Origin: Polaromonas sp.
Lineage (GTDB): Bacteria > Pseudomonadota > Gammaproteobacteria > Burkholderiales > Burkholderiaceae_C
Reading direction: 5' to 3'
NCBI GenBank assembly: GCA_021153985.1
Contig: JAJKJM010000100.1
Coordinates: 1-32,958 of the forward strand
Length of the DNA: 32,958 nucleotides
The notes under the pieces were generated by a model. The model saw nothing but the letters and a program-made list of their open reading frames with translations, did no database searches and was not told where the DNA came from. Made by a program: the position numbers and the translations under genes. How positions within the stretch are numbered: the stretch's first letter is position 1; each line of letters begins with the position of its first letter. Below, piece after piece: positions 9,815 to 29,933 of the stretch.

Positions 9815-10053
9815 AAGCAAAGAGAAGGCGACCCTACTTGCTGCGTCCCTTCGCTTCGCTACGGGCAACCTGCGGTGCTCGGTCCAGACGGGGTCTCGCT
9901 AAACTCGCTTCGCTCAAACAACGCGATCCCTGATCCGTCTGGCCCTGCGCTCCTCGGCGCATCCAGAAGGGGTGGGGAGATGGAATACCAATACCGAATA
10001 CCCAAACAACCGAACTCCCAACAGCCGAAGACAGAACCCCGAATACCTGAAGA

Positions 10054-10083
10054 AACAAGGACTCGCCATGGCGAGTCCTTGTT
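10054..10083. repeat. Perfect 30-bp central palindrome
   Basis: AACAAGGACTCGCCA is followed directly by its exact reverse complement, with no spacer. It marks the symmetry centre of the large element, and on RNA would extend the long hairpin to its tip. Confidence 0.85.
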
Positions 10084-10292
10084 GGTATTGGATTTGGTTT
10101 TGGTATTTGTCCCCGCTCCCGATCCCGATTGCCCCTTGTGGATGTGCCGAGGAGCGCAGGGCCAGACGGATCAGGGCAAAAACTTGTTTGAGCGTAGCGA
10201 GTTGTTTTTGACCCCGGCTGGACCGAGCACCGCAGGTTGCCCCGGAGCGAAGCGCAGGGGACGCAGGAACCAGGGTCGCCTTTCTTTTGCTT

Positions 10293-10320
10293 ACTTTTCT
10301 TTGGCGAAGCAAAGAAAAGT
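10293..10320 (-). repeat. Stem-loop in right arm of the large palindrome
   Basis: The plus strand reads ACTTTTCTTTG, loop GCGAAG, CAAAGAAAAGT, a perfect 11-bp stem. Read in arm orientation it matches the left stem-loop with the same loop and three compensated base-pair changes. Confidence 0.8.
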
Positions 10321-10419
10321 GAGTTGCCGCCGGGCAACCCCCGGCCAGCCGCCCCCAACAAAGACCCCTGCAACAAGAGCAACCACAGCCAAAAGCCCAA
10401 GCGGCCAGCAGGAGACCCC

Positions 10420-14795: not shown

Positions 14796-15230
14796 TCAGG
14801 CCGTCTTTTGCGAAGGCCAGCGATAGCCCAACACCGCGCTCAGCGGATAGAAATGCTCACGCACCTCATCTAGCTGGTTGCCGCCCCACAAATACACATA
14901 CTCCGCATCCGTGCGAAGAAAGAATCCGACGTGGCCCTTCCAGCCGGTGGGGTCTTCGCGCGACAAAACGGCGATGCAGCCGGGCACAGGTTCAGGGAGC
15001 GGTTCCCCCCACTCCAGCCATGAACGCGCCAGCGCGGACCCGGTGCCGGCGATGCCGACCTGGGCCAATGACCAATTCACGAATGAAGAACACCACGAGG
15101 CCTTGTCGTCATAGCCGGGAATATTGGTGAGTGCGTGGTACTCGGTGACACGGGGGTTGCTCTGACCCGGGGGGAATGTGCGCACGCCGGCTTCGGCGCG
15201 GGCGACTGGCATCCAGGAGGCGTGTTGCAT
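14796..15230 (-). CDS. TIGR02594-like Cys/His hydrolase (CHAP/NlpC-type fold)
   Basis: A 144-residue protein matching the TIGR02594 pattern. An opening WMPVARAEAGVRTF is followed by SNPRVTEYHALT, then DDKASWCSSFVNWSLAQVGI, ARSWLEWGEPL, KGHVGFFLRTD, LWGGNQLDEV and a VLGYRWP end. The likely nucleophile is Cys47 and the His is His100, as in CHAP/NlpC amidohydrolases that cut peptidoglycan peptides. Similar domains are also found as phage-type endolysins and secreted effectors. There is no signal peptide, so export would need another route. It follows a small membrane protein gene by 23 bp. Start site: no strong ribosome-binding site before ATG 15230; a second Met is at residue 7. Confidence 0.82.
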   Translation of the reverse strand: MQHASWMPVARAEAGVRTFPPGQSNPRVTEYHALTNIPGYDDKASWCSSFVNWSLAQVGIAGTGSALARSWLEWGEPLPEPVPGCIAVLSREDPTGWKGHVGFFLRTDAEYVYLWGGNQLDEVREHFYPLSAVLGYRWPSQKTA

Positions 15231-15540: not shown

Positions 15541-16359
15541 TCACACCGGCTGGATCGTGATCTCCACCGTCATCGACTCTTCGCCCCCGCCCTGCCGCAC
15601 GCCTTTGATGGGTGGGCAGGCGTTGTAGTCGGTGCCCATGGCCAGGCGTACGTGGCGCTCGTCGATCAGGCAGCTGTGGGTCACATCAATGCTGACCCAG
15701 CGGCGCGAGGCGACGTCCAGGCAGACATCGCACCAGGCGTGGCTGGCCAGGTCGGGCTCATTCGCGGCGTAGAAATAGCCGCTGACATAACGTGCCGGAT
15801 AGCCCAGGCTGCGGCAGATGGCGACCATCACGTGGGCCTGGTCCTGGCAGACGCCTGCGCCGGACTTGAAGGCTTGAAGTGCGGTGGTGGTTACGGTGGT
15901 ACTGTTTTTGAGATAGCTCACAGCCCCCGCCACGCCCCGGCTCAGCGTCAGCAAGGCCGGCAGGCTGGCGGTGCCGTCCACGCTTTGCGCCATAAAGCGG
16001 CGGCCGAATTCGGCGAGTTCAAAGTGCGGTTCGGCCAGGTGGGTGGCGCGCAAAAAGAAGTACGGATGCGGCAAGATCTCGGCATCGTTGAACTCGGCCA
16101 CGCCAAAAGTTTCGACATCGCCGGCCGCATTGACCAGGCTCCAGCGCACGTTGTCCGCATCCTTGCCGACAAAGGTGTAAGAGCTGATGGTGTTGCCGAA
16201 GGTGTCGCGCTGGGTGAAGAGTTTCTCAGGCGCGCCCAGGCTCCAATAGTTCACCGTTTGCGCCGGGCCGGACTGCGGTGTGAGCCACAGGGTTTGCAGC
16301 GCGTAGCGTAAAGGCTCGGTATAGCGATAGTCGGTAATATGCCGGACGTGAAGTTTCAT
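15541..16359 (-). CDS. Transglutaminase-like protein of the ATP-grasp/alpha-E module A
   Basis: A 272-residue protein with a Bact_transglu_N beta domain (MKLHVRHITDYRYTEPLRYA) followed by a transglutaminase-like papain fold. Triad: Cys171 in GAGVCQDQAHVMVA, His207 in LASHAWCDV and Asp225 in WVSIDVTHS. There is no signal peptide or TM segment, so it is cytoplasmic. Proteins of this type most likely hydrolyse or transfer peptide/isopeptide bonds; no substrate is known. It is third in the minus-strand unit ATP-grasp - alpha-E - transglutaminase, 28 bp after alpha-E. Its paralogue at 28364-29293 holds the same place in module B. All catalytic residues are present. Confidence 0.92.
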   Translation of the reverse strand: MKLHVRHITDYRYTEPLRYALQTLWLTPQSGPAQTVNYWSLGAPEKLFTQRDTFGNTISSYTFVGKDADNVRWSLVNAAGDVETFGVAEFNDAEILPHPYFFLRATHLAEPHFELAEFGRRFMAQSVDGTASLPALLTLSRGVAGAVSYLKNSTTVTTTALQAFKSGAGVCQDQAHVMVAICRSLGYPARYVSGYFYAANEPDLASHAWCDVCLDVASRRWVSIDVTHSCLIDERHVRLAMGTDYNACPPIKGVRQGGGEESMTVEITIQPV

Positions 16360-16387
16360 GAGGCTCCCGCGCCGGCATCACGGCTCA

Positions 16388-17350
16388 TCAATGTGTTGCC
16401 GGCACAAGAAATTCCCGGCTGATGTGTGCACCGATCTCGTTGACGCGGTCCAGGAACTGGGTCAAAAAGGCGTGCAAGCCGGTGGCCAGGATCTCGTCAA
16501 TGCGGGCGTACTGCAGGTCGGCCCGCAGCTTGCCGGCGCGGCGCTGGGTTTCGCTGCCGGTATCGCTGGTCACCATGGCGAGGTTGCTCATGAGTTCGTT
16601 CAGGCAGGCCAGCAGCGAACGCGGCATGTCGGGCCGCAAAATCAGCAACTCGGCCACGCGCTCAGGCTTGATGACGTCGCGGTAGACCTTGCGGTAGACC
16701 TCGAAGCCCGACACGCTGCGCAAAATCGCACTCCAGTGATAGAAGTCGTACTCCTGGTCTTTCTCGCCGTCGGTGCCCAGAAAGTCGTTTTGCACCGCAT
16801 GGAATTTCACGTCCACCAGGCGGGCGGTGTTGTCGGCCCGCTCCAGGAAAGTGCCCAGGCGCAGGAAGTGAAAAGCCTCGTCTTGCAGCATGGTGCCGGC
16901 CGTCACGCCGCGCGACAGGTGGGAGCGGAACTTGACCCATTCAAAAAACTGGCCGGGGTCGCGCTCAAAGTCGCCGTTGCGCAGCATGCGAATGACTTCA
17001 AGATAGGTCTGGTTCTGCGTTTCCCAGACTTCGGTGGTCAAGGTGCCGCGCACGGCGCGGGCGTTTTCGCGGGCGTTCTGCAAGCACGAGACGATGCTGG
17101 AAGAGTTCTGCTCATCGCGCACCATGAAATCCATGACTTCGCGCGGGTTGATGTTCTCACCGTATTTGGCGGCGAAGGAAGGCTTGAGCTCACTGATACT
17201 CAGCAGGCTTTGCCAGCCGCCTTGCACAACCGCAGCCGATTGCGGCAGCAATGATGTCTGGTAGTTGACGTCGAGCATGCGTGCGGTGTTCTCTGCGCGT
17301 TCCGTGTAGCGGGACATCCAGAAGAGGTGATCGGCAGTGCGTGACAACAT
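16388..17350 (-). CDS. Alpha-E domain protein (DUF403)
   Basis: A 320-residue all-helical protein of the alpha-E family. It opens MLSRTADHLFWMSRYTERAE, the invariant start of the family, and keeps the conserved helical segments HFLRLGTFLERADNTARLVD and DMPRSLLACLNELMS. Alpha-E domains are found almost only next to, or fused to, circularly permuted ATP-grasp domains, and are thought to be their structural or substrate-binding partner. No catalytic residues are known. Its start codon is 2 bp after the ATP-grasp stop codon, and its ribosome-binding site (GGAGGGAA) lies in the last codons of that gene, indicating tight translational coupling. The equivalent domain is fused to ATP-grasp in the module B protein (25532-28339). 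Confidence 0.94.
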   Translation of the reverse strand: MLSRTADHLFWMSRYTERAENTARMLDVNYQTSLLPQSAAVVQGGWQSLLSISELKPSFAAKYGENINPREVMDFMVRDEQNSSSIVSCLQNARENARAVRGTLTTEVWETQNQTYLEVIRMLRNGDFERDPGQFFEWVKFRSHLSRGVTAGTMLQDEAFHFLRLGTFLERADNTARLVDVKFHAVQNDFLGTDGEKDQEYDFYHWSAILRSVSGFEVYRKVYRDVIKPERVAELLILRPDMPRSLLACLNELMSNLAMVTSDTGSETQRRAGKLRADLQYARIDEILATGLHAFLTQFLDRVNEIGAHISREFLVPATH

Positions 17351-17352
17351 GA

Positions 17353-18861
17353 TTATTTCCCTCCTTGAGTCTGCGACTGCGATTGCGATTGCGATTGAGA
17401 CTGGAATGCCACGGGCGATGACGGGCCTTCCAGAATCCAGGTGTCTTTGGTGCCGCCGCCCTGCGACGAATTGACCACCAGCGAGCCGTCTTTGAGCGCC
17501 ACGCGCGTGAGGCCGCCGGGCACCATCTGCACTTCCTTGCCGCTCAGCACAAAGGGCCGCAAGTCGATGTGGCGCGGTGCAATGCCGCTTTCCACATACG
17601 TCGGGCAGGTTGAAAGGCTCAGCGTGGGCTGGGCGATATAGCCCGAGGGGTTGGCTAGCAACGCCGCGCGGAAATCTTCAATCTCGGCCTTGGTGGAGGC
17701 TGGCCCCACCAGCATGCCGTAGCCGCCGGCGCCGTGCACTTCCTTGACGACCAGGTCTTTGAGGTTGGCCAGTGTGTACTGCAAGTCTTCGTTGTTGCGG
17801 CACATATAGGTCGGCACGTTTTTCAGGATGGGTTTTTCGCCGAGGTAGAACTCGATCATCTTGGGCACGTAGGGGTAGATCGATTTGTCGTCGGCCACCC
17901 CGGTGCCGATGGCGTTGCACAGCGAGACATTGCCGCTGCGGTACACATTGAGCAGGCCCGCGCAACCGAGCGTGGAATTGGGCCTGAAGGCCAGCGGATC
18001 CAGGAAGTCGTCGTCAACGCGGCGGTAGATCACGTCAACGCGGCGGGGGCCGCGCGTGGTACGCATGTAGACAAAGTTGTCCTTGACGAAAAGATCCTGG
18101 CCTTCGACCAGCTCGACGCCCATCTGCTGCGCGAGGAAGGCGTGCTCAAAGTAGGCCGAGTTGTACATGCCGGGCGTGAGCACCACCACCGTGGGCTCGG
18201 CCGTGGCGGGCGGCGCCATGCCGCGCAAGGTTTCGAGCAGCAGGTCGGGGTAATGCGCCACCGGGGCCACACGGTTCTGGCTGAAGAGATCAGGGAAAAG
18301 CCGCATCATCATTTTGCGGTCTTCCAGCATGTAGCTCACGCCGCTGGGCACGCGCAGGTTGTCTTCCAGCACGTAGTACTCGCCCTCGCCCTGTGCATTG
18401 GGCGCGCGCACGATGTCGATGCCGCTGATGTGCGAATAGATATTGCCGGGAACGTCCACACCCATCATCTCGGGGCGGAACTGCGCGTTCTGGAAAATCT
18501 GCTCCGAAGGGACGACACCGGCCTTGATGATGTCCTGGCCGTGATAGACGTCGTGGATAAAGCGGTTGAGGGCCGTGACGCGCTGGACCAGGCCTTTTTC
18601 CATGCTGGCCCATTCGTGGGCGGGAATGATGCGGGGGATCAGGTCAAAGGGAATCAGCCGTTCGGTGCCGGCGCCGTCTTCGTCTTTGGCGCCATACACG
18701 GCAAAGGTGATGCCGACCCGCCGGAAAATCATCTCCGCTTCGGCGCGGCGCGCCTCCATCACATCAGCCGGCTGCTGGGCCAGCCAGCGATGGTAGCCCT
18801 GGTAGTGCTCACGGACGCTGGATTCCGTGGCGTTCATTTCGTCAAACATCGGTCGGCTCAT
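17353..18861 (-). CDS. Circularly permuted ATP-grasp type 2 protein (COG2308 family)
   Basis: A 502-residue predicted ATP-dependent carboxylate-amine ligase. Recognisable segments: MFRRVGITFAVYG-like opening (here IFRRVGITFAVYGAKD), LIPRIIPAHEW, VPGNIYSHISGIDIVR, VLEDNLRVPSGVSYMLEDR (metal/ATP site with the E-D-N set intact), LTPGMYNSAYFEHAFLA, VDVIYRRVDDDFLDPLAF and the Gly-rich VKEVHGAGGYGMLVGP. The start at 18861 has GGAG nine bases upstream; an in-frame ATG six codons earlier is less likely. The last ~18 residues are a Ser/Gln repeat (SQSQSQSQSQTQ) made by a 6-bp tandem repeat. First gene of module A, 92 bp after comEC. Such ligases are predicted to make a small peptide or modified peptide, identity unknown. 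Confidence 0.94.
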   Translation of the reverse strand: MSRPMFDEMNATESSVREHYQGYHRWLAQQPADVMEARRAEAEMIFRRVGITFAVYGAKDEDGAGTERLIPFDLIPRIIPAHEWASMEKGLVQRVTALNRFIHDVYHGQDIIKAGVVPSEQIFQNAQFRPEMMGVDVPGNIYSHISGIDIVRAPNAQGEGEYYVLEDNLRVPSGVSYMLEDRKMMMRLFPDLFSQNRVAPVAHYPDLLLETLRGMAPPATAEPTVVVLTPGMYNSAYFEHAFLAQQMGVELVEGQDLFVKDNFVYMRTTRGPRRVDVIYRRVDDDFLDPLAFRPNSTLGCAGLLNVYRSGNVSLCNAIGTGVADDKSIYPYVPKMIEFYLGEKPILKNVPTYMCRNNEDLQYTLANLKDLVVKEVHGAGGYGMLVGPASTKAEIEDFRAALLANPSGYIAQPTLSLSTCPTYVESGIAPRHIDLRPFVLSGKEVQMVPGGLTRVALKDGSLVVNSSQGGGTKDTWILEGPSSPVAFQSQSQSQSQSQTQGGK

Positions 18862-18874
18862 CGGCTTGTTCTCC

Positions 18875-18914
18875 AGCAAGTTATGCGCATGGTGTAGCTT
18901 AGCAAGTTATGCGC
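18875..18914 (-). repeat. 14-bp direct repeat upstream of module A
   Basis: AGCAAGTTATGCGC occurs at 18875-18888 and again at 18901-18914, 26 bp apart start to start, just before the ribosome-binding site of the ATP-grasp gene. Two identical sites at 2.5 helical turns could be regulator sites or a small duplication. Confidence 0.55.
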
Positions 18915-18953
18915 CAAGGCGGTGCACCCTCGCCTTATTTTTCAGAAGCTGTC

Positions 18954-21500
18954 CTAACGCTCAGGCACATGATGCCAGTAGCGCTTGCCCTCTTCCCGCT
19001 GGCAACGAAAAATGTCCGGTTGCCGGCTTTGCCACGTGGCCGCCCCGCACTGCGGCGACTTCACAAGGCGTATGCCGCGCTCTTCATACCGCGCCACCAC
19101 CGAATCGACCGGATGGCCAAAACGGTTGCGGTAACCGGCCTGGACCACCGCCCACTGCGGTTTCACGGCGTCCAGAAATACCGCGCTGGACGATGTCTTG
19201 CTGCCATGGTGGGGCACCAGCAGCACATCGGCCTTCAGAGCGGCTGGGTTGGCTGTGGCCAGCCGAAGCTCCTGCGGCGACTCGATATCACCCACCAGCA
19301 GGGCGGTGCGGTTGCCGTTAGAGATGCGCAGCACGCAGCTCATGGCGTTGGATTTGTTGCCGGCGCCGTAGTCTTCGGCGGCCGGGTGCAACACCTCAAA
19401 CGCCACGCCATCCCATTCCCAGCGCTGGCCGGCCACGCAGCGGCTGGCTTTGCGCAAGGCCTGCAAAGGGTGGGTCTCTTCAATCGAGCTCATCAGGCGG
19501 GCGCCGGGCTGCATGGCCAGCACGGCGGCCGCTCCGCCAATATGGTCGATGTCGCGGTGGCTGACCATGAGCACATCCAGCCGGTCTCCCAAGGCCCGCA
19601 GCAGCGGCACCAGCACCCGGTGGCCGGCATCGCTTTCGCGGGAAAACTTTGGCCCGGCGTCATAAAGCAAGGTGTGGTTCGCCGTGTGTACGAGCACGGC
19701 ATTGCCTTGGCCGATGTCGGCTGCCAGTAGCTCAAACTGGCCGGCCGGCACACTGGCCGGCTGCCATAGCAGCACCGGCAGCAACAAGGGAATGCCCAAA
19801 GCGCGCCAGCCCCATGGCAGACGGGTGGCCAGCAAACCGCCGCCCGCCACGCCGGCCACGGCACACCACAGCGGCGCCGCCGCCACGCTGACGGAAGCCC
19901 ACGGCCAGCTTGCCAGCCACTGCAGGAAAAGCACCAGCACGCTCACGACCCACGCCGCCGCCAGCCATACCGGTGCCCACAGCACGCCCAGCAAGGCCAG
20001 TGGCGTGACAACCAGGGTCACCAGGGGAATCGCCACGGCATTGGCCAGCAGGCCGACCAGCGACACCTGGTTGAACAGCAGCAGGGACAAGGGCGTGAGC
20101 GCCAGCGTGACCACCCATTGCTCCCGCAGGGCGCCGGCAAGGCCCGCCAGCCACGCAGGCCAGCGCAGCAGTTTCCAGCGGCTGTCCGGTTTTTCTTCGG
20201 TGCCAGATCGGCCTCCAGCCCAATCCCCGTCTTGACTTGATGCTCCTGAATCTGTAGCAAACAACACGCCGACCGCCACAAAGGAAAGCCAGAATCCGGC
20301 CTGCATCAAGGCCCACGGGTCCAGCACCACCACCACGGCCATGGCAAGCAGCCAAGTCTGCGCCCACGGCCACTGCCGCCCGCCCTGCCGCAGCAAAATA
20401 ACGACGGCCAGCATCCAGATGGTGCGTTGCGCCGGCACACCCCAGCCGGAAAACAGCGCGTACAACGTGGCCAGCGCAAGCCCGCCCAAGGCACCGGCGG
20501 CGCCGGCCGGCAAGGCCAGGCACAGCCTGGGCGTCAAGCGTGCCGACTTTCGCCACAGGCCACCGATCAGCAGCGATGCGGCCCAGGCGAACATGGTTAT
20601 GTGAAGGCCCGAAATGCTCATCAGGTGCGCCACACCGGTTGCGCGGAAGACATCCCAGTCGGCGCGCTCAATCGCGTTCTGGTCGCCCACCACCAGCGCG
20701 GCGATGACACCCGCCATTTGCCGGTTCTCAATCCGCTGGAAGATGGCGTCGCGTACCGTCTGCCGGGCCTGCTCGATCGGATACTGCCAACTGGTGGAAA
20801 GCCGGGTGGGCGGCGCATCGTGCACGCCGGCACGCACATAGCCGGTGGCCTGAAGGCCTTGCTCCCAGAGCCAAAGCTCGTAGTCAAAGCCATTCGGGTT
20901 GCTGTTGCCGTGCGGCGCCTTGAGCCGAACCGTCATTTGCCAGCGCTCGCCGGCACGCAGCGGTTGCGGCTGGCGCTGCAGCGCGAGCGCCGCCTCGAAG
21001 GGGTCGGCGTCCTGCGCCGGCACGGGGGCTTCACGCCCGGCAAAGCCCGAATACCAGCCGAGCAGGATTTGCGGCGGCAAGGTGACCGTGCGGCCATCCA
21101 GCCGCGCCGATTCAATTCCCAGGCGAAAGCGCACACCGTCTTCCCCAGGCTGCGGCATCGCCAGCACGCTGCCGGTCACCTCGATGTCACGGCCTTCAAG
21201 GGCCGGGCTCAGTGCCGACGACTGGAACACGCCGGCCCGCCAGCCCGTTACGCCAAAACCCAGCATGGCGGCGAGCGTGAACATCAGGCCGGCACGGCAC
21301 CACCAGGCCATCTGCGCGCGGCCGCCAAAGCACAAGAGCAAGCCCGCAGCCGCGCAGCCCGGCAAGATGGCCGCCCCGTACCAGCCGGCGGGCCACAGCG
21401 CCGGCTGCTGAAGTTGCAGGGCAATGCCCACGATGAAGCCGGCACACGCCGGCCCCGGGCTCATAGCGCTCAGCCAACGCCCGCTTGATTCTGGTCGCAT
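18954..21500 (-). CDS. comEC: ComEC/Rec2-family DNA internalisation protein
   Basis: An 848-residue polytopic inner-membrane protein that carries transforming single-stranded DNA into the cytoplasm. Parts in order: N-terminal TM segments and DUF4131 region (residues ~1-200); the Competence domain with LMSISGLHITMF near residue 290, then many TM helices; and a C-terminal metallo-beta-lactamase-like domain with DIGQGNAVLVHT, SHRDIDHIGG near residue 650 and VPHHGSKTSS. All metal-site motifs are present. ATG 21500 has GGGGAGG eight bases upstream; a TTG directly before it is the alternative. A hydrophilic insert at residues ~414-433 is encoded by a dispersed-repeat copy. It is divergent from the 1202-aa gene and upstream of module A on the same strand. 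Confidence 0.94.
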   Translation of the reverse strand: MRPESSGRWLSAMSPGPACAGFIVGIALQLQQPALWPAGWYGAAILPGCAAAGLLLCFGGRAQMAWWCRAGLMFTLAAMLGFGVTGWRAGVFQSSALSPALEGRDIEVTGSVLAMPQPGEDGVRFRLGIESARLDGRTVTLPPQILLGWYSGFAGREAPVPAQDADPFEAALALQRQPQPLRAGERWQMTVRLKAPHGNSNPNGFDYELWLWEQGLQATGYVRAGVHDAPPTRLSTSWQYPIEQARQTVRDAIFQRIENRQMAGVIAALVVGDQNAIERADWDVFRATGVAHLMSISGLHITMFAWAASLLIGGLWRKSARLTPRLCLALPAGAAGALGGLALATLYALFSGWGVPAQRTIWMLAVVILLRQGGRQWPWAQTWLLAMAVVVVLDPWALMQAGFWLSFVAVGVLFATDSGASSQDGDWAGGRSGTEEKPDSRWKLLRWPAWLAGLAGALREQWVVTLALTPLSLLLFNQVSLVGLLANAVAIPLVTLVVTPLALLGVLWAPVWLAAAWVVSVLVLFLQWLASWPWASVSVAAAPLWCAVAGVAGGGLLATRLPWGWRALGIPLLLPVLLWQPASVPAGQFELLAADIGQGNAVLVHTANHTLLYDAGPKFSRESDAGHRVLVPLLRALGDRLDVLMVSHRDIDHIGGAAAVLAMQPGARLMSSIEETHPLQALRKASRCVAGQRWEWDGVAFEVLHPAAEDYGAGNKSNAMSCVLRISNGNRTALLVGDIESPQELRLATANPAALKADVLLVPHHGSKTSSSAVFLDAVKPQWAVVQAGYRNRFGHPVDSVVARYEERGIRLVKSPQCGAATWQSRQPDIFRCQREEGKRYWHHVPER
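20203..20260 (-). repeat. Dispersed-repeat copy inside comEC
   Basis: On the minus strand this reads GCTACAGATTCAGGAGCATC, then AAGACGGGGATTGGGCTGGA and GGCCGATCTGG. The middle block matches AAGATGGGTATTGGGCTGGA of the intergenic copy at 29398-29451 at 18 of 20 positions. Read in frame it gives a hydrophilic loop (ATDSGASSQDGDWAGG) between predicted TM segments. Confidence 0.6.
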
Positions 21501-21760
21501 CAAGGCGGCCTCCCCTTTTCAAGATTATTTTTATCTGCCTTCTACGGCCTCGCTGACCACGATTCGCAAGGCAATCCAAAAGGCAACCCGCAACCCTGCC
21601 TGCAAGAACGCTAAAGCGCCAGAGAAATGTGCGTGAAATGTGCGTGGCGCAGCTCTTGCTTTCAGAACATCGCCAAATGCGGGTAAGCTGCTCGCATGGT
21701 GTTTTCCCAAGGCCGCAATGATGTGGCGGCCGTGTTGTCATTTTTTAAAGCGAGGCTGCC
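21501..21760. other. Divergent intergenic region, comEC / module B
   Basis: A 260-bp gap with divergent genes on both sides, so it should hold promoters for comEC and for module B. An A/T-rich patch (about 21519-21540, TTTTCAAGATTATTTTTATC) lies next to comEC, and a T-run with TTTTTTAAAG lies at 21741-21750 before the module B start. No clear operator, hairpin or open frame was identified. Confidence 0.4.
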
Positions 21761-24700
21761 TTGTCCATCCACGTTGCCCTGAGCCACATCACCCACTACA
21801 AATACGACCGGCTGGTCAAGCTGGGTCCCCAGGTCGTCCGGCTGCGGCCCGCACCGCACAGCCGTACCCAGGTCCTGTCTTATTCCCTCAGGGTCGAGCC
21901 CGCCGGGCATTTCATCAACTGGCAGCAGGACCCGTTTGCCAACTACCAGGCCCGGCTGGTGTTTCCGGAGCCCACGCGCGAGTTCAAGGTCACGGTCGAC
22001 CTGGTGGTGGAAATGGCGGTGTTCAACCCGTTTGATTTCTTCCTGGAGCCGGCCGCCGAAGAGTTTCCCTTCACCTACAACGCGCTGCAGGCCCGCGAGC
22101 TCGCGCCCTACCTGGCCACCCAGCCGGCGACGCCGCTGCTCAAGCGCTACCTCGAGAAAATCGACCGCACGCCCAAGCGCACCATCGACTTCCTGGTCGG
22201 CCTGAACCAGGGCCTGCAGTCCGACATCAAATACTCCATCCGCATGGAGCCCGGTGTACAGACGCCTGAAGAAACCCTGCGCCTGGCCTGCGGCTCCTGC
22301 CGCGACACGGGCTGGCTGCTGGTGCAACTGCTGCGGCACATGGGCCTGGCCGCGCGCTTTGTCTCGGGCTACCTGATCCAGCTCAAGGCCGACGTCAAAT
22401 CGATCGACGGCCCCAGCGGCGCCGAGACCGATTTCACAGACTTGCACGCCTGGTGCGAGGTGTTTTTGCCGGGCGCCGGCTGGGTCGGCCTGGACCCGAC
22501 CTCCGGCCTGATGGCGGGCGAAGGCCATATCCCGCTGGCCTGCACGCCCGAGCCATCAAGTGCCGCGCCGGTCGAAGGCGGCGTCGACAAATCCGAAGTT
22601 GAATTCGAGCACCACATGGCGGTGCAGCGCATTTACGAGTCGCCACGCGTGACCAAGCCCTACACCGAAGAGCAATGGCAAGAGGTGCTGGCGCTCGGTG
22701 AAAAGGTCGACAAAGACCTGGCCGCCGGCGATGTGCGCCTGACCATGGGCGGCGAGCCGACCTTTGTGGCCACCACCGACCGCGATGCGGCCGAGTGGAA
22801 CATCGACGCCCTGGGCCCCACCAAACGGGGCTATGCGACCGAGCTGGTGCAAAAACTGCGTGCCGAATACGGCGAAGGCGGCTTCCTGCATTTCGGCCAG
22901 GGCAAGTGGTACCCGGGCGAGCAGCTGCCGCGCTGGGCGCTGAGCATTTTCTGGCGCAAGGACGGCCAGCCCATCTGGCAGAACCCGGACCTGTTTGCCG
23001 ACGAGCGCCAGCCCTGCAACTACACCAGCGCCGACGCGCAGCGTTTTGTGCAGACGCTGGCGGGCAAGCTGGGCCTGGCCACGACCTACATCACGCCGGG
23101 CTATGAAGACACCTGGTACTACCTCTGGCGTGAGCGCCGCCTGCCGGTCAACGTGGACCCGTTTGATTCGCGGCTGGACGACGCCATGGAGCGGGAGCGC
23201 CTGCGCCGTGTCTTCATGCAGGGGCTTGACTCGGTGGTGGGCTATGTTTTGCCGCTGCAGACCAAGGAGCAGCTCAAGCAGAGAAACGCCGGTGCATCGC
23301 CTTCCCTGGCGGGGCCCAAATGGACCACCGGCCCCTGGTTCTTCCGTGATGAACGCATGTACCTGATGCCGGGCGATTCGCCCATGGGTTACCGCCTGCC
23401 GCTGGACTCCGTGCCCTGGGTGTCCAAGACCGACTACCCCTACATGATTGAGGCCGACCCGTTTGCGCCGCGCCAGAACCTGCCGGCGGCTTCGGCGCTT
23501 GCCGCGCGCTACAACGGCAGCGTGGGCGCAGCCCGCGGCGCCGTGCCCGCAACAGGCACCCCTCCTGCAGGCGGCAGTGCCAATGCGTTGGCGCAATACA
23601 TGGCGCGCTACCTGACGGGCAACACCGCACTGACGCAAGCCAGCCGCATTTTGCAGTTCCGCCCGCTGGGCAACAACGGAACGAACGGAACGGGCGGCGC
23701 GAACGGCAAGCCGGCTGCGGAGGCCGCGACACCTGCCGACGACCGCGCGCCCGAACCCTTTGAATCGGCCGCCTGGCTCACCCGCACCGCGCTCTGCGTC
23801 GAAGTGCGCGACCCGCAACGCGCCAACGGCCCCAAAGACAAACCCAAGGCCGACCCTGACAGCAAGGCCAATAAGTCGGGGCGCGGCGAGGTCGGCGCGA
23901 TTTACGTCTTCATGCCGCCCATGGAAAGGCTGGAGGACTACCTGGATTTGCTGGCTGCGGTGGAAGCCACGGCGCAATCGCTGGGCGTCAGCATCGTGCT
24001 CGAAGGCTACCCGCCGCCGCGCGACCCGCGCCTGAAAATGCTGCAGGTCACGCCCGACCCGGGCGTCATTGAAGTCAACATCCACCCGGCCTACAACTGG
24101 GGCGAACTGGTCGAGCACACCGAGTTCCTCTACAAGATCGCGCACGAGACACGCCTGTCGGCCGAGAAGTTCATGACCGATGGCCGGCACACCGGCACCG
24201 GCGGCGGCAACCACTTTGTGCTGGGCGGCGCCACACCGGCCGACAGCCCCTTCCTGCGCAAGCCCGAGGTGCTGGGCAGCCTGATCGCCTACTGGCACAA
24301 CCACCCGTCGTTGAGCTATTTGTTTTCGGGCATGTTCATTGGCCCCACCAGCCAGGCACCGCGCGTGGATGAGGCCCGCAACGACCAGCTGTACGAGCTG
24401 GAAATTGCCTTGCGCGAGATCGAGAACAACCGCAAAAAATACGGCGCCGACATGCCGCCCTGGCTGGTCGACCGCACGCTGCGCAACATCCTGGTCGACG
24501 TGACCGGCAACACGCACCGCAGCGAATTCTGCATCGACAAGATGTACTCGCCCGACTCCACGACAGGCCGACTGGGCCTGCTGGAGTTGCGCGCCTTTGA
24601 AATGCCGCCACACGCGCGCATGAGCATCGCCCAGCAACTGCTGCTGCGCGCACTGGTCGCACGTTTCTGGAACAAGCCCTACCACGGCCGCGTCACGCGC

Positions 24701-25369
24701 TGGGGCACTGAGCTGCATGACCGTTTCCTGCTGCCGGGCTTTATCCGCATGGATTTTGAAGACGTGCTGACCGAACTGCGCGAAGCCGGATATGACTTCG
24801 ACATGGCCTGGTTCGAACCGCATTTCGAGTTCCGCTTCCCGCTGATCGGGCAAGTCAAGTCCAACAGCATTGAGCTGACATTGCGCAGCGCGCTGGAGCC
24901 CTGGCATGTGATGGGCGAGGAAGGCTCGGCCGGCGGCACCGTGCGCTATGTGGATTCATCGCTCGAGCGTATCGAGGTGCACGTGACCGGCCTGAACGAC
25001 AACCGCTACGTGATCACCGTCAACGGCCGCGCGCTGCCGCTGCAGAGCACCGGGCGCGTCGGCGAATACGTGGCCGGTGTGCGCTACAAGGCCTGGAACC
25101 CGCCTTCAGCGCTGCACCCCTCTATCGGCGTGCATGCGCCGCTCACCTTTGACATCGTCGACACTTGGATGGAGCGCTCCTTGGGTGGCTGCCAGTACCA
25201 CGTGGCGCACCCGGGCGGGCGCAGCTACGACACGCTGCCGGTCAATTCGTACGAGGCCGAAAGCCGCCGCCTCACGCGCTTTTTCCGCATGGGCCACACG
25301 CCCGGCAAGATGCGCGTGGCGCCGGCGCAGGCGAGCCGGGAGTTCCCATTCACGCTGGACTTGCGCTAA
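21761..25369 (+). CDS. Transglutaminase-DUF2126 protein (module B, predicted amidoligase component)
   Basis: A 1202-residue cytoplasmic protein. Residues 1-~290 are Bact_transglu_N plus transglutaminase core with Cys180 (CGSCRDTGWLL), His229 (DLHAWCEVF) and Asp245 (GLDPTSG). The rest is DUF2126, beginning VRLTMGGEPTFVATTDRD near residue 326, with GKWYPGEQLPRW, MTDGRHTGTGGGNHFVLGG (~805-823), YWHNHPSLSYLFSG and GGRSYDTLPVNSYEAESRR near the end. DUF2126 has been placed in the glutamine-synthetase/GCS2-like COOH-NH2 ligase superfamily by sequence analysis. A Gly/Asn/Ala-rich linker lies at ~637-662. The start is TTG (21761), with GAGG five bases upstream and a family-like MSIHVALSHITHYKYDR N-terminus. 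First gene of module B; the product is unknown. Confidence 0.93.
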   Translation: MSIHVALSHITHYKYDRLVKLGPQVVRLRPAPHSRTQVLSYSLRVEPAGHFINWQQDPFANYQARLVFPEPTREFKVTVDLVVEMAVFNPFDFFLEPAAEEFPFTYNALQARELAPYLATQPATPLLKRYLEKIDRTPKRTIDFLVGLNQGLQSDIKYSIRMEPGVQTPEETLRLACGSCRDTGWLLVQLLRHMGLAARFVSGYLIQLKADVKSIDGPSGAETDFTDLHAWCEVFLPGAGWVGLDPTSGLMAGEGHIPLACTPEPSSAAPVEGGVDKSEVEFEHHMAVQRIYESPRVTKPYTEEQWQEVLALGEKVDKDLAAGDVRLTMGGEPTFVATTDRDAAEWNIDALGPTKRGYATELVQKLRAEYGEGGFLHFGQGKWYPGEQLPRWALSIFWRKDGQPIWQNPDLFADERQPCNYTSADAQRFVQTLAGKLGLATTYITPGYEDTWYYLWRERRLPVNVDPFDSRLDDAMERERLRRVFMQGLDSVVGYVLPLQTKEQLKQRNAGASPSLAGPKWTTGPWFFRDERMYLMPGDSPMGYRLPLDSVPWVSKTDYPYMIEADPFAPRQNLPAASALAARYNGSVGAARGAVPATGTPPAGGSANALAQYMARYLTGNTALTQASRILQFRPLGNNGTNGTGGANGKPAAEAATPADDRAPEPFESAAWLTRTALCVEVRDPQRANGPKDKPKADPDSKANKSGRGEVGAIYVFMPPMERLEDYLDLLAAVEATAQSLGVSIVLEGYPPPRDPRLKMLQVTPDPGVIEVNIHPAYNWGELVEHTEFLYKIAHETRLSAEKFMTDGRHTGTGGGNHFVLGGATPADSPFLRKPEVLGSLIAYWHNHPSLSYLFSGMFIGPTSQAPRVDEARNDQLYELEIALREIENNRKKYGADMPPWLVDRTLRNILVDVTGNTHRSEFCIDKMYSPDSTTGRLGLLELRAFEMPPHARMSIAQQLLLRALVARFWNKPYHGRVTRWGTELHDRFLLPGFIRMDFEDVLTELREAGYDFDMAWFEPHFEFRFPLIGQVKSNSIELTLRSALEPWHVMGEEGSAGGTVRYVDSSLERIEVHVTGLNDNRYVITVNGRALPLQSTGRVGEYVAGVRYKAWNPPSALHPSIGVHAPLTFDIVDTWMERSLGGCQYHVAHPGGRSYDTLPVNSYEAESRRLTRFFRMGHTPGKMRVAPAQASREFPFTLDLR

Positions 25370-25371
25370 AG

Positions 25372-25404
25372 GCTGGCGGGGTGCTTTGCGGAGCCCCCGC
25401 CAGC
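25372..25404 (+). terminator. GC-rich hairpin just after the DUF2126 gene
   Basis: GCTGGCGGGG (25372-25381) pairs with CCCCCGCCAGC (25394-25404) around a 12-nt loop, two bases after the stop codon. No U-run follows, so it is a weak or Rho-assisted terminator, or an mRNA-processing/stabilising hairpin between the first two genes of module B. Confidence 0.45.
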
Positions 25405-25531
25405 AGCGGTCATCAGTCTGTCTTATGGGTGCAACATTTGCATGCGCATGCGGCATAAATAGGCGCTTTGGCCGGCAAACGCTCCCTGTTTGAGGCTTTG
25501 CGCCTCTGGGCCGCAGGCATACTCGCAAGAC

Positions 25532-28339
25532 GTGGAAAATAACACCGAGTCACTTTTTGCCGCCCAGGCGCTTGAATCTCCCTGTGCCCTGGCCGCCGCG
25601 CTGGCGCCTCATGCGGCGTCGGGGCACTTCGACGAGTTGCGGGGCCGGCCTTCCGACGGGCCCGCAGAAGCGGCCGCACCGGCACAGCCTGTACTACGCT
25701 CGGCCGATAGCACGCCTGAGCCCGCCGCCTCGCCTGAGCCCCCGCCCGCCGCCGACGACACCTTGTCGCCCGAGTGGACGCGCTTCTTCAACTTCCTGGG
25801 CACCGATGGTTTCTACGACCTGAACCACCGCACCGCCAACCTGCGCCGCCAGATCCGCGACAACGGCGTGACCTACAACGTCTATGCCGACGCCAATGGC
25901 CCGCAGCGGCCCTGGGCGCTGGATCTTTTCCCGATGATGGTGTCGGCCAGTGACTGGGCGCACATCGAGGCCGGCATCCAGCAGCGTGCCCGCCTGCTGG
26001 ACCGCGTGATGGCCGACATTTACGGCCCGCAGGAGTTGCTCTCCAAAGGCCTGTTGCCCAGCGCACTGGTGCATGCCCACCCCGGCTATCTGCGCGGCAT
26101 GCAGGGCGTCAAGCCCGCCGGCGGCACCTACCTGCACATTGCCGCTTTCGACATCGCGCACGGCCCTGATGGCCGCTGGTCGGTGGTGTCGCAACGCACA
26201 CAGGCGCCTTCCGGCCTGGGCTACCTGCTGGAAAACCGCCTGACCATTTCCCTGCTCTTCCCCGAAGCTTTCCGCGAAATGAAGGTGGAACGGCTGGCCG
26301 CGTCGTACAAAGCGCTGGTCGACGGGCTCAAGGCCATGAGCCCGGCCGACAGCAATGAAGAAAGCCGCGTCGTGCTGCTCACACCCGGCCCCTACAACGA
26401 AACCTATTTCGAGCACGCCTACCTCGCGCGCTTCCTGGGCCTGACGCTGGTCGAAGGCAGCGACTTGCTGGTGCGCGACGACAAGCTCTACCTCAAGACG
26501 CTGCGCGGCCTGGAGCCGGTGCACGGGCTGCTCAAGCGGCTGGACGATGAATTCCTCGACCCGCTGGAGCTGCGCTCGGACTCCACGCTGGGCGTGCCCG
26601 GCCTGTTGCAGGTGATACGCGCCGGCAATGTGCTGGTGGTCAACACACCGGGCTCGGCCTTCCTTGAATCGAGCGCATTGCTCGGCTTTCTTCCCGCGCT
26701 CTCCGAACACCTGCTCGGTGAAACCTTGGCCTTGCCCTCGCTGGCCACCTGGTGGTGCGGTGAGCAGGCCGTCATGCAGGACGTGTTGAGCCAGCTCAAG
26801 AATTCCGTGATCAAACCGACCTACCCCGGCTCGGGCATGGAATCGGTCATTGGCCACACGCTGTCGCGCCGCGCACTGGACGAGTGGGCTGGCCGCATTG
26901 TGCGCCGCGGCGAAGACTACACCGTGCAGGCCTACCTGCCGCTGCCGCAAACGCCGACCTGGCAAGGCGAGCGGATTTCCCCGCGATCGGCCATGTTGCG
27001 TGTGTTCGCCGTGGCGGACGGCAACGGCTCCTGGCAAGTGCTGCCCGGCGGCCTGGCGCGGCTGGCCGGCAAGAACGAAAACATGTCGTCGATGCAGCAC
27101 GGCGGCAGCAGCGCCGATGTGTGGGTGCTGGGCGACCCGTCCGCCGGCAAGGCGACGGCCCCGCGCACCGAGCAGCCCGCGCCCGCCTGGGCGACAGCGC
27201 CGCTGCGCCACCGCCCGCCCGTCACCAGCCGCGCGGCCGAAAACCTTTTCTGGCTGGGCCGTTATACCGAGCGCGCCGAGAACTCCACGCGCCTGGCGCA
27301 AATCACGCTGCAATGCCTGGGCGGCGAAGACCAGACCTCGCAGCCGCTGCTGGCCTGGCTGACCAGCATGGCCGTCGGCAATGCCTTGGTGCTGGACACC
27401 GTGCCGCCGGCCACCCAAGCGCGCCGCGTGTTCGAGCGCGCCCTGATCGCCAGCCTGGCCGACACCGAACAAGCCGCCAGCGTGGGCTACAACCTGCGCG
27501 CGCTCAAAAGCGCGGCTTCGGCCGTGCGCGAACGCCTGTCGCAAGAGCAGTGGCACATGATTGTGCGCACCGAAGCAGATTTCTTCCAGCGCTGCGCGAT
27601 TTTCAGTGCCGTCAGCCCGGGCGGCGCAGCAAGCCAAAGCCAGCACCAAGGCGGTCAGCATCAAAGCCAGACCCAAAGCCAAAGTAGCCAAAGCCCGATG
27701 ACCCCCTACCCGCCCGAGTATTCGTCGGTCGAAGCCCTTCGCGCGCTGGAGTCGGCCAGCGGCTTTCTCTCGGCCATGACAGGCGCGCAAACCGACCGCA
27801 TGACGCGCGACGACGGCTGGCGGCTTTTGAGCATGGGCCGGCTGATCGAACGCCTCAACGCACTGGCGGGGGCGCTGGTGCGCGGCTTTGAAACCGGATC
27901 AGTCTTTGAAGAAGGCGGCTTCAACGCGATGGTGGCGCTCTTTGACAGCACCATCACCTTCCACGCGCAGTACCAGCAGCGCCGCGACATCCCCGCGCTG
28001 CTTGATCTGCTGGTGCTCGACCGCGACAACCCACGCTCGCTGGGCTGGGTGGTGCAAACCCTGCGCGGGCGCCTGGCCAAGCTGGCCGGCAGCGCGCCGG
28101 GCTATATGCCCGACGTGGCCATGGAGCTCCCTGACCCCGGCAGCTGGGCGCTGGCCGATCTGTGCCAGGACTCGCCTGTGGGCGAAGACGGCGAAGGCTC
28201 CGGAACCGGTGCCCGGCATTACGGGCATTTGGTCCAGTTGCTGGAGCAATGCTGCGACGCGGCGCTGGAACTGTCGGACACGCTGAGCCGGCGCTACTTC
28301 AGCCACGCGGCATCCGGCAGCCAGAGCCTGGGCGCTTGA
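25532..28339 (+). CDS. Fused circularly permuted ATP-grasp - alpha-E protein (module B)
   Basis: A ~935-residue protein joining the two domains that are separate in module A. After a Pro/Ala-rich N-terminal ~75 residues, the ATP-grasp part runs to ~540 (FFNFLGTDGFYDLNHRTAN, LTPGPYNETYFEHAYLA, LKRLDDEFLDPLELRSDSTL, VIKPTYPGSGMESVIG). The alpha-E part begins near 567 (RAAENLFWLGRYTERAENS) and continues to the end. At the site where module A has EDNLRVPSG, this protein reads SQRTQAPSG (residues 220-228), so the acidic metal-site residues are replaced. A Ser/Gln/His-rich stretch (~698-723) interrupts the alpha-E part. The start is uncertain: I use GTG 25532; TTG 25490 is possible, and neither has a strong ribosome-binding site. 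Confidence 0.9.
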   Translation: MENNTESLFAAQALESPCALAAALAPHAASGHFDELRGRPSDGPAEAAAPAQPVLRSADSTPEPAASPEPPPAADDTLSPEWTRFFNFLGTDGFYDLNHRTANLRRQIRDNGVTYNVYADANGPQRPWALDLFPMMVSASDWAHIEAGIQQRARLLDRVMADIYGPQELLSKGLLPSALVHAHPGYLRGMQGVKPAGGTYLHIAAFDIAHGPDGRWSVVSQRTQAPSGLGYLLENRLTISLLFPEAFREMKVERLAASYKALVDGLKAMSPADSNEESRVVLLTPGPYNETYFEHAYLARFLGLTLVEGSDLLVRDDKLYLKTLRGLEPVHGLLKRLDDEFLDPLELRSDSTLGVPGLLQVIRAGNVLVVNTPGSAFLESSALLGFLPALSEHLLGETLALPSLATWWCGEQAVMQDVLSQLKNSVIKPTYPGSGMESVIGHTLSRRALDEWAGRIVRRGEDYTVQAYLPLPQTPTWQGERISPRSAMLRVFAVADGNGSWQVLPGGLARLAGKNENMSSMQHGGSSADVWVLGDPSAGKATAPRTEQPAPAWATAPLRHRPPVTSRAAENLFWLGRYTERAENSTRLAQITLQCLGGEDQTSQPLLAWLTSMAVGNALVLDTVPPATQARRVFERALIASLADTEQAASVGYNLRALKSAASAVRERLSQEQWHMIVRTEADFFQRCAIFSAVSPGGAASQSQHQGGQHQSQTQSQSSQSPMTPYPPEYSSVEALRALESASGFLSAMTGAQTDRMTRDDGWRLLSMGRLIERLNALAGALVRGFETGSVFEEGGFNAMVALFDSTITFHAQYQQRRDIPALLDLLVLDRDNPRSLGWVVQTLRGRLAKLAGSAPGYMPDVAMELPDPGSWALADLCQDSPVGEDGEGSGTGARHYGHLVQLLEQCCDAALELSDTLSRRYFSHAASGSQSLGA

Positions 28340-28363
28340 GCCTCGGGCCTGCTAACGCTATTT

Positions 28364-29293
28364 ATGCTGCTGCACGTCGTTCACGAAACCCGCTACCGCT
28401 ATGCGCCGGCGGTAGAAAACGCGCACCATGTGGTGCACCTCAAACCCGCCAACCGCAACGGGCAAAGCCTGCTGAGCTACGACCTGCGCATAGCCCCCGC
28501 GCCCGTGCAGCTGCGCGAAACCGTCGATGTATACGGCAACACCCGCAGCTATTTCTCGCTGCAGGCCGCGCATGAAAGCCTCACCGTGGTGGCCGACAGC
28601 ATCGTGTCTACTTCAGTGGCCAACCCGCTGCAGTCAGAGGCGTCGCTGTCTACCAGCCGGCCCGCCTCGCCGCCCTGGGAACAGGTGCGCGATCAGTTCC
28701 GCTACCGCGCCGGCGCCGCCTACGACAGCGCCTCTGAGTTCCTCTTCGCGTCGCCCTATGTGCCGCGCGACGAAGCCTTTGTCGAATTTGCCCGGCCCAG
28801 CTTTCTGCCCGGCAGGCCCTTGCCTGAGGCCGCGCGCGACCTGATGGAACGCATCCACAGCACGATGACCTACGAAAGCGAAAGCACCGAGGTCAGCACG
28901 CCGGCACTCGAGGCGCTTCAGCAAGGCAAAGGCGTCTGCCAGGATTTTGCGCACATCATGGTGGCCTGCTGCCGCGCGATGGGCTTGCCGGCGCGCTATG
29001 TCAGCGGCTATTTGCTGACCAGCCCACCGCCCGGCCAGCCCCGCCTGGTCGGTAGCGACGCCTCGCACGCGTGGGCCTCGGTGTACTGCCCGGGTTTGGG
29101 CACCTGGCTGGATTTCGACCCCACCAACAATCGCGCGCCGGGCGAAGACTATGTGACGCTGGCCACCGGCCGCGACTTCCTGGACGTATCGCCCATGCGC
29201 GGCGTGATTCGCGGCGGGGCACAGCACATCCTGGACGTGGCGGTGACGGTGGAGCCTTTATCCGACACGGCGGTAGCAGGCACTGCGAGCTGA
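28364..29293 (+). CDS. Transglutaminase-like protein of module B
   Basis: A 309-residue protein paralogous to 15541-16359. Bact_transglu_N comes first (MLLHVVHETRYRYAPAVENA), then the papain-like core with Cys192 (GKGVCQDFAHIMVACC), His235 (SDASHAWASVYCPG) and Asp252 (WLDFDPTNN). The C-terminus ends GVIRGGAQHILDVAVTVEP, as in the family. It is cytoplasmic, with no signal peptide. It begins 24 bp after the ATP-grasp/alpha-E fusion gene and so should be co-transcribed. No clear Shine-Dalgarno sequence precedes ATG 28364, so coupling to upstream translation is plausible. It completes module B; no Anbu-type peptidase gene, a common neighbour elsewhere, follows. Confidence 0.92.
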   Translation: MLLHVVHETRYRYAPAVENAHHVVHLKPANRNGQSLLSYDLRIAPAPVQLRETVDVYGNTRSYFSLQAAHESLTVVADSIVSTSVANPLQSEASLSTSRPASPPWEQVRDQFRYRAGAAYDSASEFLFASPYVPRDEAFVEFARPSFLPGRPLPEAARDLMERIHSTMTYESESTEVSTPALEALQQGKGVCQDFAHIMVACCRAMGLPARYVSGYLLTSPPPGQPRLVGSDASHAWASVYCPGLGTWLDFDPTNNRAPGEDYVTLATGRDFLDVSPMRGVIRGGAQHILDVAVTVEPLSDTAVAGTAS

Positions 29294-29397: not shown

Positions 29398-29451
29398 TGC
29401 TATGAAAAATATAGCTGCTTGCCAAGATGGGTATTGGGCTGGAGATCTTTT
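29398..29451 (+). repeat. Copy of the ~60 bp dispersed repeat upstream of the RidA-like gene
   Basis: GCTATGAAAAATATAGCTGC, then AAGATGGGTATTGGGCTGGA and GATCTTTTTCATCATC. It contains the small hairpin GCTATgaaaaATATAGC and ends about 20 bp before the start codon of the RidA-like gene, so it probably forms much of that gene's 5' leader. Confidence 0.65.
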
Positions 29452-29471
29452 TCATCATCAAAGGATTCCTC

Positions 29472-29924
29472 ATGAGCGCCCATGACAAGCTGAAAGCACT
29501 GAACATCACCCTGCCCCCTGTGGCCATCCCCGTCGCCGCCTACCTGCCCTTTGTGCAGACCGGCAATCTGGTGTTCCTGAGCGGCCACATCGCCAAGAAG
29601 GACGGCAAGCCCCTGGTCGGCCAGTTGGGCAAGAACATGACGACGGAAGAAGGCAAGGCGGCGGCACGCTCCATCGCCATCGACCTGATGGGCACCCTCG
29701 AAGCCGCTGTGGGCCTGGGCAAAGTCAAACGCATCGTCAAGCTGATGAGCCTCGTCAACTCCACCGGCGACTACACCGAGCAGCACTTGGTGACCAACGG
29801 CGCCAGCGAGTTGTTTGCCGAAGTCTTCGGCGACGCCGGCAAACATGCGCGCAGCGCGTTCGGCGTAGCGCAAGTGCCGATGGGCGCCTGTGTTGAGATC
29901 GACCTGATTGCCGAAGTCGAATAA
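29472..29924 (+). CDS. RidA/YjgF-family protein
   Basis: A 150-residue RidA-superfamily protein. The archetype hydrolyses reactive enamine/imine intermediates to ketoacids and ammonia. The visible parts are VQTGNLVFLSGHIAKKDGKP, a GTLEAAVGLGKVKRIVKL helix and the C-terminal HARSAFGVAQVPMGACVEID. In the last segment Arg127 matches the Arg that holds the substrate carboxylate in RidA (R105), so deaminase-type activity is possible. It is longer than RidA proper (~128 aa) and belongs to another branch of the family. ATG 29472 is preceded by AAAGGA; a TTG/ATG-like longer start upstream would lie inside the dispersed repeat. It is followed 9 bp later by a cysteine hydrolase gene, so the two are an operon. 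Confidence 0.92.
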   Translation: MSAHDKLKALNITLPPVAIPVAAYLPFVQTGNLVFLSGHIAKKDGKPLVGQLGKNMTTEEGKAAARSIAIDLMGTLEAAVGLGKVKRIVKLMSLVNSTGDYTEQHLVTNGASELFAEVFGDAGKHARSAFGVAQVPMGACVEIDLIAEVE

Positions 29925-29933
29925 GTCTTCGGG

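Follow-up and report, generated by a model that had tools for sequence, protein, structure and literature searches.

The 32,958-nt contig JAJKJM010000100.1 of a Polaromonas sp. genome (GenBank assembly GCA_021153985.1, contig C100; 4.51 Mb, 230 contigs, 88.9% complete), hereafter the window, carries two gene modules of the ATP-grasp, alpha-E and transglutaminase families: module A (15541-18879, minus strand) and module B (21761-29293, plus strand), with comEC between them. A first-pass annotation had described this gene content on either side of comEC as two versions of one kind of system; open reading frames (ORFs) and Pfam families confirmed the content and support the kind, and A and B are better read as one system than as two versions. 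We consider it rather probable that they are two transcription units of a single sigma54-controlled system that ligates and cleaves amides, with NtrC most likely turning it on under nitrogen scarcity, and that the ATP-grasp half of the module B fusion has been repurposed, its ATP machinery having been replaced long ago. The system is of a known predicted kind, in a variant with coupled halves, sigma54-like promoters at both and one repurposed ATP-grasp. Seeing the modules as one nested system whose halves both have sigma54-like control, and one of the two ATP-grasp proteins as no canonical ligase, tells under which condition, with which genes together and on which enzyme to study these families, which are widespread (alpha-E in 171 of 299 phylum genomes).

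Judged by gene content, module B depends on module A. In our family sample (75 genomes from 75 genera), the standalone alpha-E of module A was found in 65 genomes, the ATP-grasp/alpha-E fusion of module B in 51 and both in 50, and the sole genome with B and without A (G343) carries an alpha-E fragment on a different contig. DUF2126, the other large component of module B, was present in 50 of the 75 genomes and together with the fusion in 49 (49 of the 51 fusion genomes). Across the sample of 299 genomes from the phylum, taken to be Pseudomonadota, all 92 genomes with DUF2126 also had alpha-E, as did 113 of the 115 with Anbu. Alpha-E was mostly duplicated in the 92 DUF2126 genomes (two copies in 83, one in 6, three in 3) and mostly single in the 79 alpha-E genomes without DUF2126 (one copy in 68, two in 11). 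On these phylum counts, ATP-grasp/alpha-E looks like the core of the system, and DUF2126 and Anbu like separate additions.

The two modules are also physically linked: for 42 of the 52 family B copies, A is at most 30 kb away on that contig (eight fragment rows were excluded beforehand); the remaining 10 had no A on their contig, and in two of the genomes concerned (G350 and G361) the DUF2126 match begins at contig base 1. Among the linked copies, 20 were divergent, mostly with comEC between the modules, 14 had A followed by B and 8 had B followed by A. On a DUF2126 tree of 47 rows, the B-then-A loci formed one clade, the divergent loci formed one clade save for one unlabelled row, A-then-B occurred also in deep branches, and the three labels require two changes. 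The link between A and B has therefore survived two or more rearrangements or been re-established after them, which is the best argument for a joint function. Furthermore, A and B form a single same-strand run in Burkholderia (L183, L212), Marinobacter (L233, L236), a Rhodocyclaceae (L225) and Verrucomicrobia (L235, L244), and at least 32 of the 92 phylum DUF2126 genomes have A within 30 kb (a lower bound, as 150 alpha-E matches were used; for this count the pieces of one DUF2126 gene were joined in 12 genomes, and a piece of 21.8 bits was left out). The first-pass annotation had proposed a survey of co-occurrence and distance, and this survey spoke against an independent distribution of A and B. 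It had also left open whether the modules act in sequence or make two different products; distribution and linkage favour the former, in the sense of acting together, and disfavour the latter.

Two independent systems with two products, lying together by chance or at a comEC hot spot, would account for the 15 of 65 family genomes that hold A and no called B (one of which, G366, holds B fragments), for the separate promoter that each half often has, and for the unlinked A and B of many genomes outside the family. However, with A in 50 of the 51 family B genomes, and with linked A-B runs in other orders and in Verrucomicrobia in stretches where no comEC was detected, we judge such independence highly unlikely.

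Nitrogen-starvation-type sigma54-like switches, not mentioned in the first-pass annotation, appear to stand before both halves. The pattern TGGCGCA-N4-TTGCT lies approximately 40 bp before ATG 18861 of module A and 100 bp before TTG 21761 of module B (Table 1); these are its only two matches in the window, both in module promoter regions, where 0.02 were expected. With R at two positions the pattern matched 10 times in the whole genome, and its reversed control once. Relatives (the window and loci L027-L146) were scored with TGGCACG-N4-TTGCW, GG and GC being required and at least 10 of 12 positions counting as a pass; the sigma54 consensus is quoted as GGcacg-N4-ttGC (PMC5491218). The first gene of A had such a site in 41 of 93 cases and the first gene of B in 19 of 59, compared with 18 of 685 for other genes (Fisher tests gave 2e-28 for A and 4e-13 for B, values that are upper limits of the evidence because related genomes are not independent). 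The controls gave 12 of 355 for intergenic-only starts, 0 of 30 for comEC and, for the reversed motif, 1 of 93 (A) and 0 of 59 (B). The genome encodes rpoN and carries the -24/-12 elements, the two marks of a sigma54 regulon. Earlier sigma54 pattern scans, made before the shared element was seen by eye, returned 0 matches in one case and 8 against 7.8 expected in the other, and a sigma70 promoter scan of the DNA found 1 against 2.6 expected. The same scan gave 33 terminator-like sites against 15.4 expected. GCGCATAACTTGCT occurs twice within 18875-18914 (minus), one copy lying within the module A sigma54-like element and the other immediately ahead of the ATP-grasp start codon.

Published expression data from other bacteria point in the same direction. 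The Burkholderia cenocepacia H111 cluster I35_5080-83 is reported to be NtrC and sigma54 dependent, and when ntrC is mutated the expression of its genes drops 8.2-, 9.4-, 9.4- and 6.0-fold (PMC5491218). In Pseudomonas putida, PP2685-2687 are described as induced by nitrogen limitation (PMC3325844), and PP_2685 and PP_2688 as up by log2 4.4 and 4.0 on nitrate versus ammonium (PMC8050072). A RpoN site has been predicted for a Bradyrhizobium CP_ATPgrasp gene (PMC13207237), and one paper states that operon expression was unchanged under several other conditions (PMC5666114).

The controls also bear on a role of the modules as an accessory to DNA uptake tied to comEC. In 36 of the 57 family loci with standalone alpha-E, no more than 1.2 kb separates comEC from the ATP-grasp gene of A or the DUF2126 gene of B, and in the window comEC is co-directional with A. 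However, none of the 30 comEC genes tested had a sigma54-like site at 10 or more of 12 positions, and no comEC was detected in the stretches examined around linked A-B loci outside the family (the sole comEC locus among L087-L106, L089, belongs to the same family). A DNA-uptake function therefore seems scarcely credible to us, and comEC looks like a genomic neighbour only.

The ATP-grasp proteins of the two modules are not equivalents, contrary to the notion of two versions. ATP-grasp domains were labelled GA or GB by similarity to the A and B domains of the window, and this split follows the fusion to alpha-E: of the proteins labelled GB, 69 of 70 and 71 of 74 carry it, and of those labelled GA none does. 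A first alignment held 104 A and 70 B domains, and a second set from named genomes, including Verrucomicrobia, Acidobacteria and Planctomycetes, held 41 and 73. In the second set, two GA rows and two GB rows were already in the first; over both sets there were 143 distinct GA and 142 distinct GB sequences. The window's module A protein contains E166-D-N168-x-R170, D324-D-K326, K373, H431-x-D433 and N464-SSQ, of which E166, D167, N168, R170, D324-D-K326, K373, H431, D433, N464 and Q467 were invariant over 104 rows. The presumed Mg-binding E-x-N pair (E166, N168) was kept in every A row (104/104 and 41/41; 145/145) and in no B row (0/70 and 0/73; 0/143). In the 70 B rows, R replaced N168 in 62, Q replaced R170 in 66 and E replaced D324 in 68, and the window's fusion has S, R and Q at the positions of E166, N168 and R170. 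The fusion profile aligned with 3n6x, its only significant PDB match, over its length, with the consensus 'sdrtq' opposite 'EDNlR'. In Escherichia coli glutathione synthetase, Glu281 and Asn283 hold two Mg ions (PMC11117183), and E166-D-N168 is equated with that E-x-N by motif only, not by superposition.

Because the replacement residues are themselves conserved, they suggest a changed role for the B ATP-grasp, not decay, and because this domain is without residues that A always keeps, A alone appears to be a canonical ATP-grasp ligase. The module B ATP-grasp should not be counted as a ligase in annotation. The literature covered held no description of an inactive ATP-grasp in this system; Iyer et al. 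2009 and Hervas et al. 2008, which lay outside that coverage, may have noted the residue loss. The fusion resembles the peptide aminoacyl-tRNA ligases (PEARLs), described as ATP-grasp descendants with altered ATP and Mg residues (PMC11117183); this likeness is one of description, the comparison of the fusion having covered the PDB only. It is conceivable, if distinctly unlikely, that the fused domain is an anciently repurposed, ATP-independent enzyme that parallels the origin of PEARLs. The R-x-Q in place of N-x-R, the E in place of D324 and arginine-rich alpha-E motifs would then recognise another kind of activated or charged substrate, candidates being an acyl phosphate supplied by A, the product of DUF2126 and a donor that is aminoacylated or carries a nucleotide; A, DUF2126 and the fusion would constitute an assembly line induced by nitrogen starvation.

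DUF2126, which looks like a relative of glutamine synthetase (GS), is the likely ligase of module B. A structural model of this region (predicted local distance difference test, pLDDT, 76.7) returned GS or a GS relative in 47 of the 50 PDB matches listed, many of them chains of the same entries, with a best E-value of 0.07, none below 0.001 and low template modelling scores. The earlier proposal of a GS-like DUF2126 agrees with this listing, in which no match is significant. The nearest PDB neighbours were GS, GmaS and 1-naphthylamine GS, and the invariant residues of the domain (E495, N497, G536-TGGGN-H542, R644, E666-x-R668) resemble GS motifs. Unlike GS, the protein has extra regions and an N-terminal transglutaminase. 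A second, divergent DUF2126 protein with a 750-amino-acid frame was seen in two family genomes (G356:C39:41221-43344 and G343:C38:5519-7549). The AlphaFold2 model of alpha-E consisted entirely of helices (pLDDT 89.4). Sequence comparison with the PDB gave no significant relative, and none of the fold matches fell below E 0.1; this protein may therefore be a new helical fold. Short partial repeats of approximately the first 20 alpha-E codons lie directly 5' of the full gene in G307 (G307:C1:673091-674339; spacing 149 bp) and also in G319, G330 and G312.

Several observations weigh against A and B as one nitrogen-controlled system. The exact window element was defined only after both sites had been seen, so that relatives and controls carry the weight of the promoter evidence, and in 35 loci with separate A and B starts, sites stood before both in 8, only A in 7, only B in 5 and neither in 15; dual sigma54 control is thus not universal. 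Nitrogen regulation has been measured only in other species. Outside the family A and B are often distant, with 60 of the 92 DUF2126 genomes having no A within 30 kb among the matches listed, and within alpha-E genomes DUF2126 and Anbu are independent of one another (Anbu present in 58 and absent from 34 genomes with DUF2126, present in 55 and absent from 24 genomes lacking it; p 0.42). Gene distances over 17 loci correlated for GA-GB (r 0.75) and little for either against comEC (0.04-0.27), a result that we rejected as proof of co-inheritance, the loci being only 17 and comEC a poor vertical marker. Support for a GS-like fold of DUF2126 is below significance, and the B ATP-grasp retains D473 (66/70), W475 (66/70), R281 (59/70) and in part K373 (31/70 and 50/73), so that loss of nucleotide binding by this domain is not proven.

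Under one joint system of A and B, the canonical ATP-grasp ligase of core A would activate a carboxylate as an acyl phosphate and join it to an amine, working with alpha-E. The dependent branch B would add a second, GS-like ligase, DUF2126, fused to a transglutaminase-fold cysteine enzyme, together with a second transglutaminase-fold enzyme and the fusion, whose ATP-grasp half, without the presumed Mg and ATP residues and attached to an alpha-E of its own, may provide a scaffold, bind substrate or have a regulatory role. Module A and DUF2126 may make successive amide bonds on one amine- or peptide-containing compound, alpha-E and the fusion may hold or pass the intermediate, and the cysteine enzymes and Anbu would cleave or transfer the product, Anbu being a further hydrolase of the set encoded elsewhere. 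A Yersinia relative of the ATP-grasp is reported to release phosphate from ATP (PMC6376114). No product or substrate for this system was found in print in the literature covered, Iyer et al. 2009 and Hervas et al. 2008 being outside it.

A sub-case of this scheme, possible but doubtful in our view, would name its chemistry as nitrogen scavenging: the ligases would attach a glutamyl or peptidyl cap to an amine or polyamine, and the cysteine enzymes and Anbu would later free the nitrogen. Such capping with a glutamyl group is carried out by gamma-glutamylputrescine and gamma-glutamylmethylamide synthetases, and the DUF2126 fold matches, none significant, include the amine-amidating 1-naphthylamine GS and GmaS. 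The NtrC/sigma54 regulation described in PMC5491218 groups the genes with urea, nitrate, polyamine and peptide uptake, and a co-variation with urea metabolism is reported from marine metagenomes (PMC3597751). However, the fold evidence is weak, no amine oxidase was found among the window genes scanned, and the sole transport-related gene near A, a TctC receptor (13604-14575), recurred in only 6 other loci.

The first-pass annotation had noted that Anbu is missing from the window, which is correct for ORFs of at least 60 amino acids; it is not the fourth gene of a module A operon. The suggested search elsewhere in the genome located it at G000:C69:20518-21255 (364 bits), adjoining a MutS gene, and its best PDB match was 5loy, a designed Anbu (2.2e-88). 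Anbu lay within 10 kb of A in only 2 of 46 family genomes with B, against 9 of 15 without B. Of 20 loci of unlinked Anbu, none showed another system member in the stretch, and 15 had a MutS relative no more than 7 kb away. We rejected a replacement of Anbu by B through mutual exclusion, Anbu being present but mostly unlinked in family genomes with B and independent of DUF2126 within alpha-E genomes. PF00227 was misleading as a test for Anbu, as true Anbu scores below its cut-off and the family found only the beta-proteobacterial proteasome homologue, BPH, which the same genome encodes at G000:C163:30581-31114 (L011; PDB 5ovu, 2.2e-66).

With Anbu as a chambered hydrolase and the ligases as taggers, the set might instead tag peptides or proteins for turnover, recycling protein nitrogen in starvation. 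The near-confinement of Anbu to alpha-E genomes would be consistent with this, tagging is listed among the published hypotheses (PMC6376114), and a peptide-synthesis system with Anbu as its peptidase is cited in PMC5666114, where the families include a proposed proteasome precursor. However, the Anbu proteins tested in PMC6376114 are reported to have no detectable peptidase activity and no specific complex with operon partners, and Anbu is rarely close to A where B is present; we therefore regard tagging as unlikely. The same absence of a complex or peptidase activity (PMC6376114) is why, within a single system of A and B, we lean to a small-molecule or peptide route.

Module A has the composition of a known operon, ATP-grasp/alpha-E/transglutaminase/Anbu, the predicted peptide-synthesis system of Iyer et al. 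2009 with Anbu as peptidase, as cited in PMC5666114 and PMC6376114. Its three genes are the same, adjacent and in the same order (CP-ATP-grasp, alpha-E, transglutaminase), its ATP-grasp is close to 3n6x, and Anbu is in the same genome. Unlike that operon, Anbu is beside mutS, A is coupled to B, and 40 of 42 family B loci lack the A transglutaminase. A transglutaminase directly followed alpha-E in 2 of the 42 family loci holding B (the window and L036) and in 8 of 9 family loci with Anbu and without B, and among L087-L146 in 4 of 20 loci with B versus 16 of 18 with Anbu and without B. These counts were made without the overlap filter of the gene maps, from which ORFs covered by a larger labelled ORF, and hence some genes, were omitted.

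A described counterpart of the two modules together is I35_5080-83 of B. cenocepacia H111, with the order ATP-grasp, alpha-E, transglutaminase, large transglutaminase protein (PMC5491218); from this order we infer that the large protein is the DUF2126 one. Our Burkholderia loci L183 and L212 have the order GA-EA-TA-TDUF-GB+EB-TB (the L212 fusion is absent from the gene map and present in the start-gene listing). Unlike in the I35_5080-83 cluster, module B of the window runs divergently from A, behind a sigma54-like element of its own, and is separated from A by comEC.

Table 1. Genes and promoter-like elements of modules A and B and the intervening comEC (positions in the window)
Feature	Position	Strand	Family or pattern
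Module A ATP-grasp ligase (CP_ATPgrasp, 3n6x type)	17353-18861	minus	CP_ATPgrasp_2, 6.8e-167
Module A alpha-E protein	16388-17350	minus	Alpha-E, 3.1e-103
Module A transglutaminase-fold protein	15541-16359	minus	Transglut_core 2.9e-18 + Bact_transglu_N
comEC	18954-21503	minus	Competence 4.8e-57, DUF4131, Lactamase_B
Module B transglutaminase-DUF2126 fusion	21761-25369	plus	Bact_transglu_N + Transglut_core + DUF2126 (PF09899), E=0
Module B ATP-grasp/alpha-E fusion	25490-28339	plus	CP_ATPgrasp_2 1.7e-143 + Alpha-E 6.2e-56
Module B second transglutaminase-fold protein	28364-29293	plus	1.7e-24
sigma54-like -24/-12 element upstream of module A	18901-18916	minus	TGGCGCA-N4-TTGCT
sigma54-like -24/-12 element upstream of module B	21645-21660	plus	TGGCGCA-N4-TTGCT

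The mechanical ORF of the module A ATP-grasp extends to TTG 18879, 74 bp from comEC, and ATG 18861 is the more likely start. Since comEC shares the strand of module A and lies directly upstream of it, the layout is one of comEC-A divergent from B. This layout, including the module A transglutaminase, is repeated in three Polaromonas loci (L167, L168, L232), and the closest named DUF2126 relatives are from Polaromonas (identity up to 83%). All three transglutaminase proteins of the window, and almost every relative, have a whole Cys-His-Asp triad, namely Cys170/His206/Asp224 in module A, Cys177/His226/Asp242 in the N-terminal domain of the DUF2126 protein and Cys191/His234/Asp251 in the second module B enzyme (numbering of the extracted domains).

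Rid/YjgF-family and isochorismatase-family genes lie behind module B (29427-30479); the nearest system gene to Rid within 600 bp was module B in 29 of 49 loci and comEC in 14 (window included), and because of the latter Rid is not counted as a member. A CHAP/TIGR02594 gene (14796-15230) lies just downstream of module A. Although a CHAP amidase is an associated feature of glutathionylspermidine synthetase/amidase, we rejected such a role for this gene, which is not fused to the ATP-grasp and had no relative in the 200 other loci searched. GSP_synth (PF03738) was found in none of 21 genomes, the Polaromonas genome included, and the module A protein matches CP_ATPgrasp instead. Two further transglutaminases with Bact_transglu_N_2 are encoded in the same genome (L013:2880-3746 on C85 and L015:3123-3977 on C83), with no other system gene detected in those stretches. 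A third, different transglutaminase neighbourhood (6723-12435, plus strand) lies 3 kb from module A, with a MoxR-type AAA ATPase (7727-8656) and TgpA (10237-12435; TgpA_N and Transglut_core).

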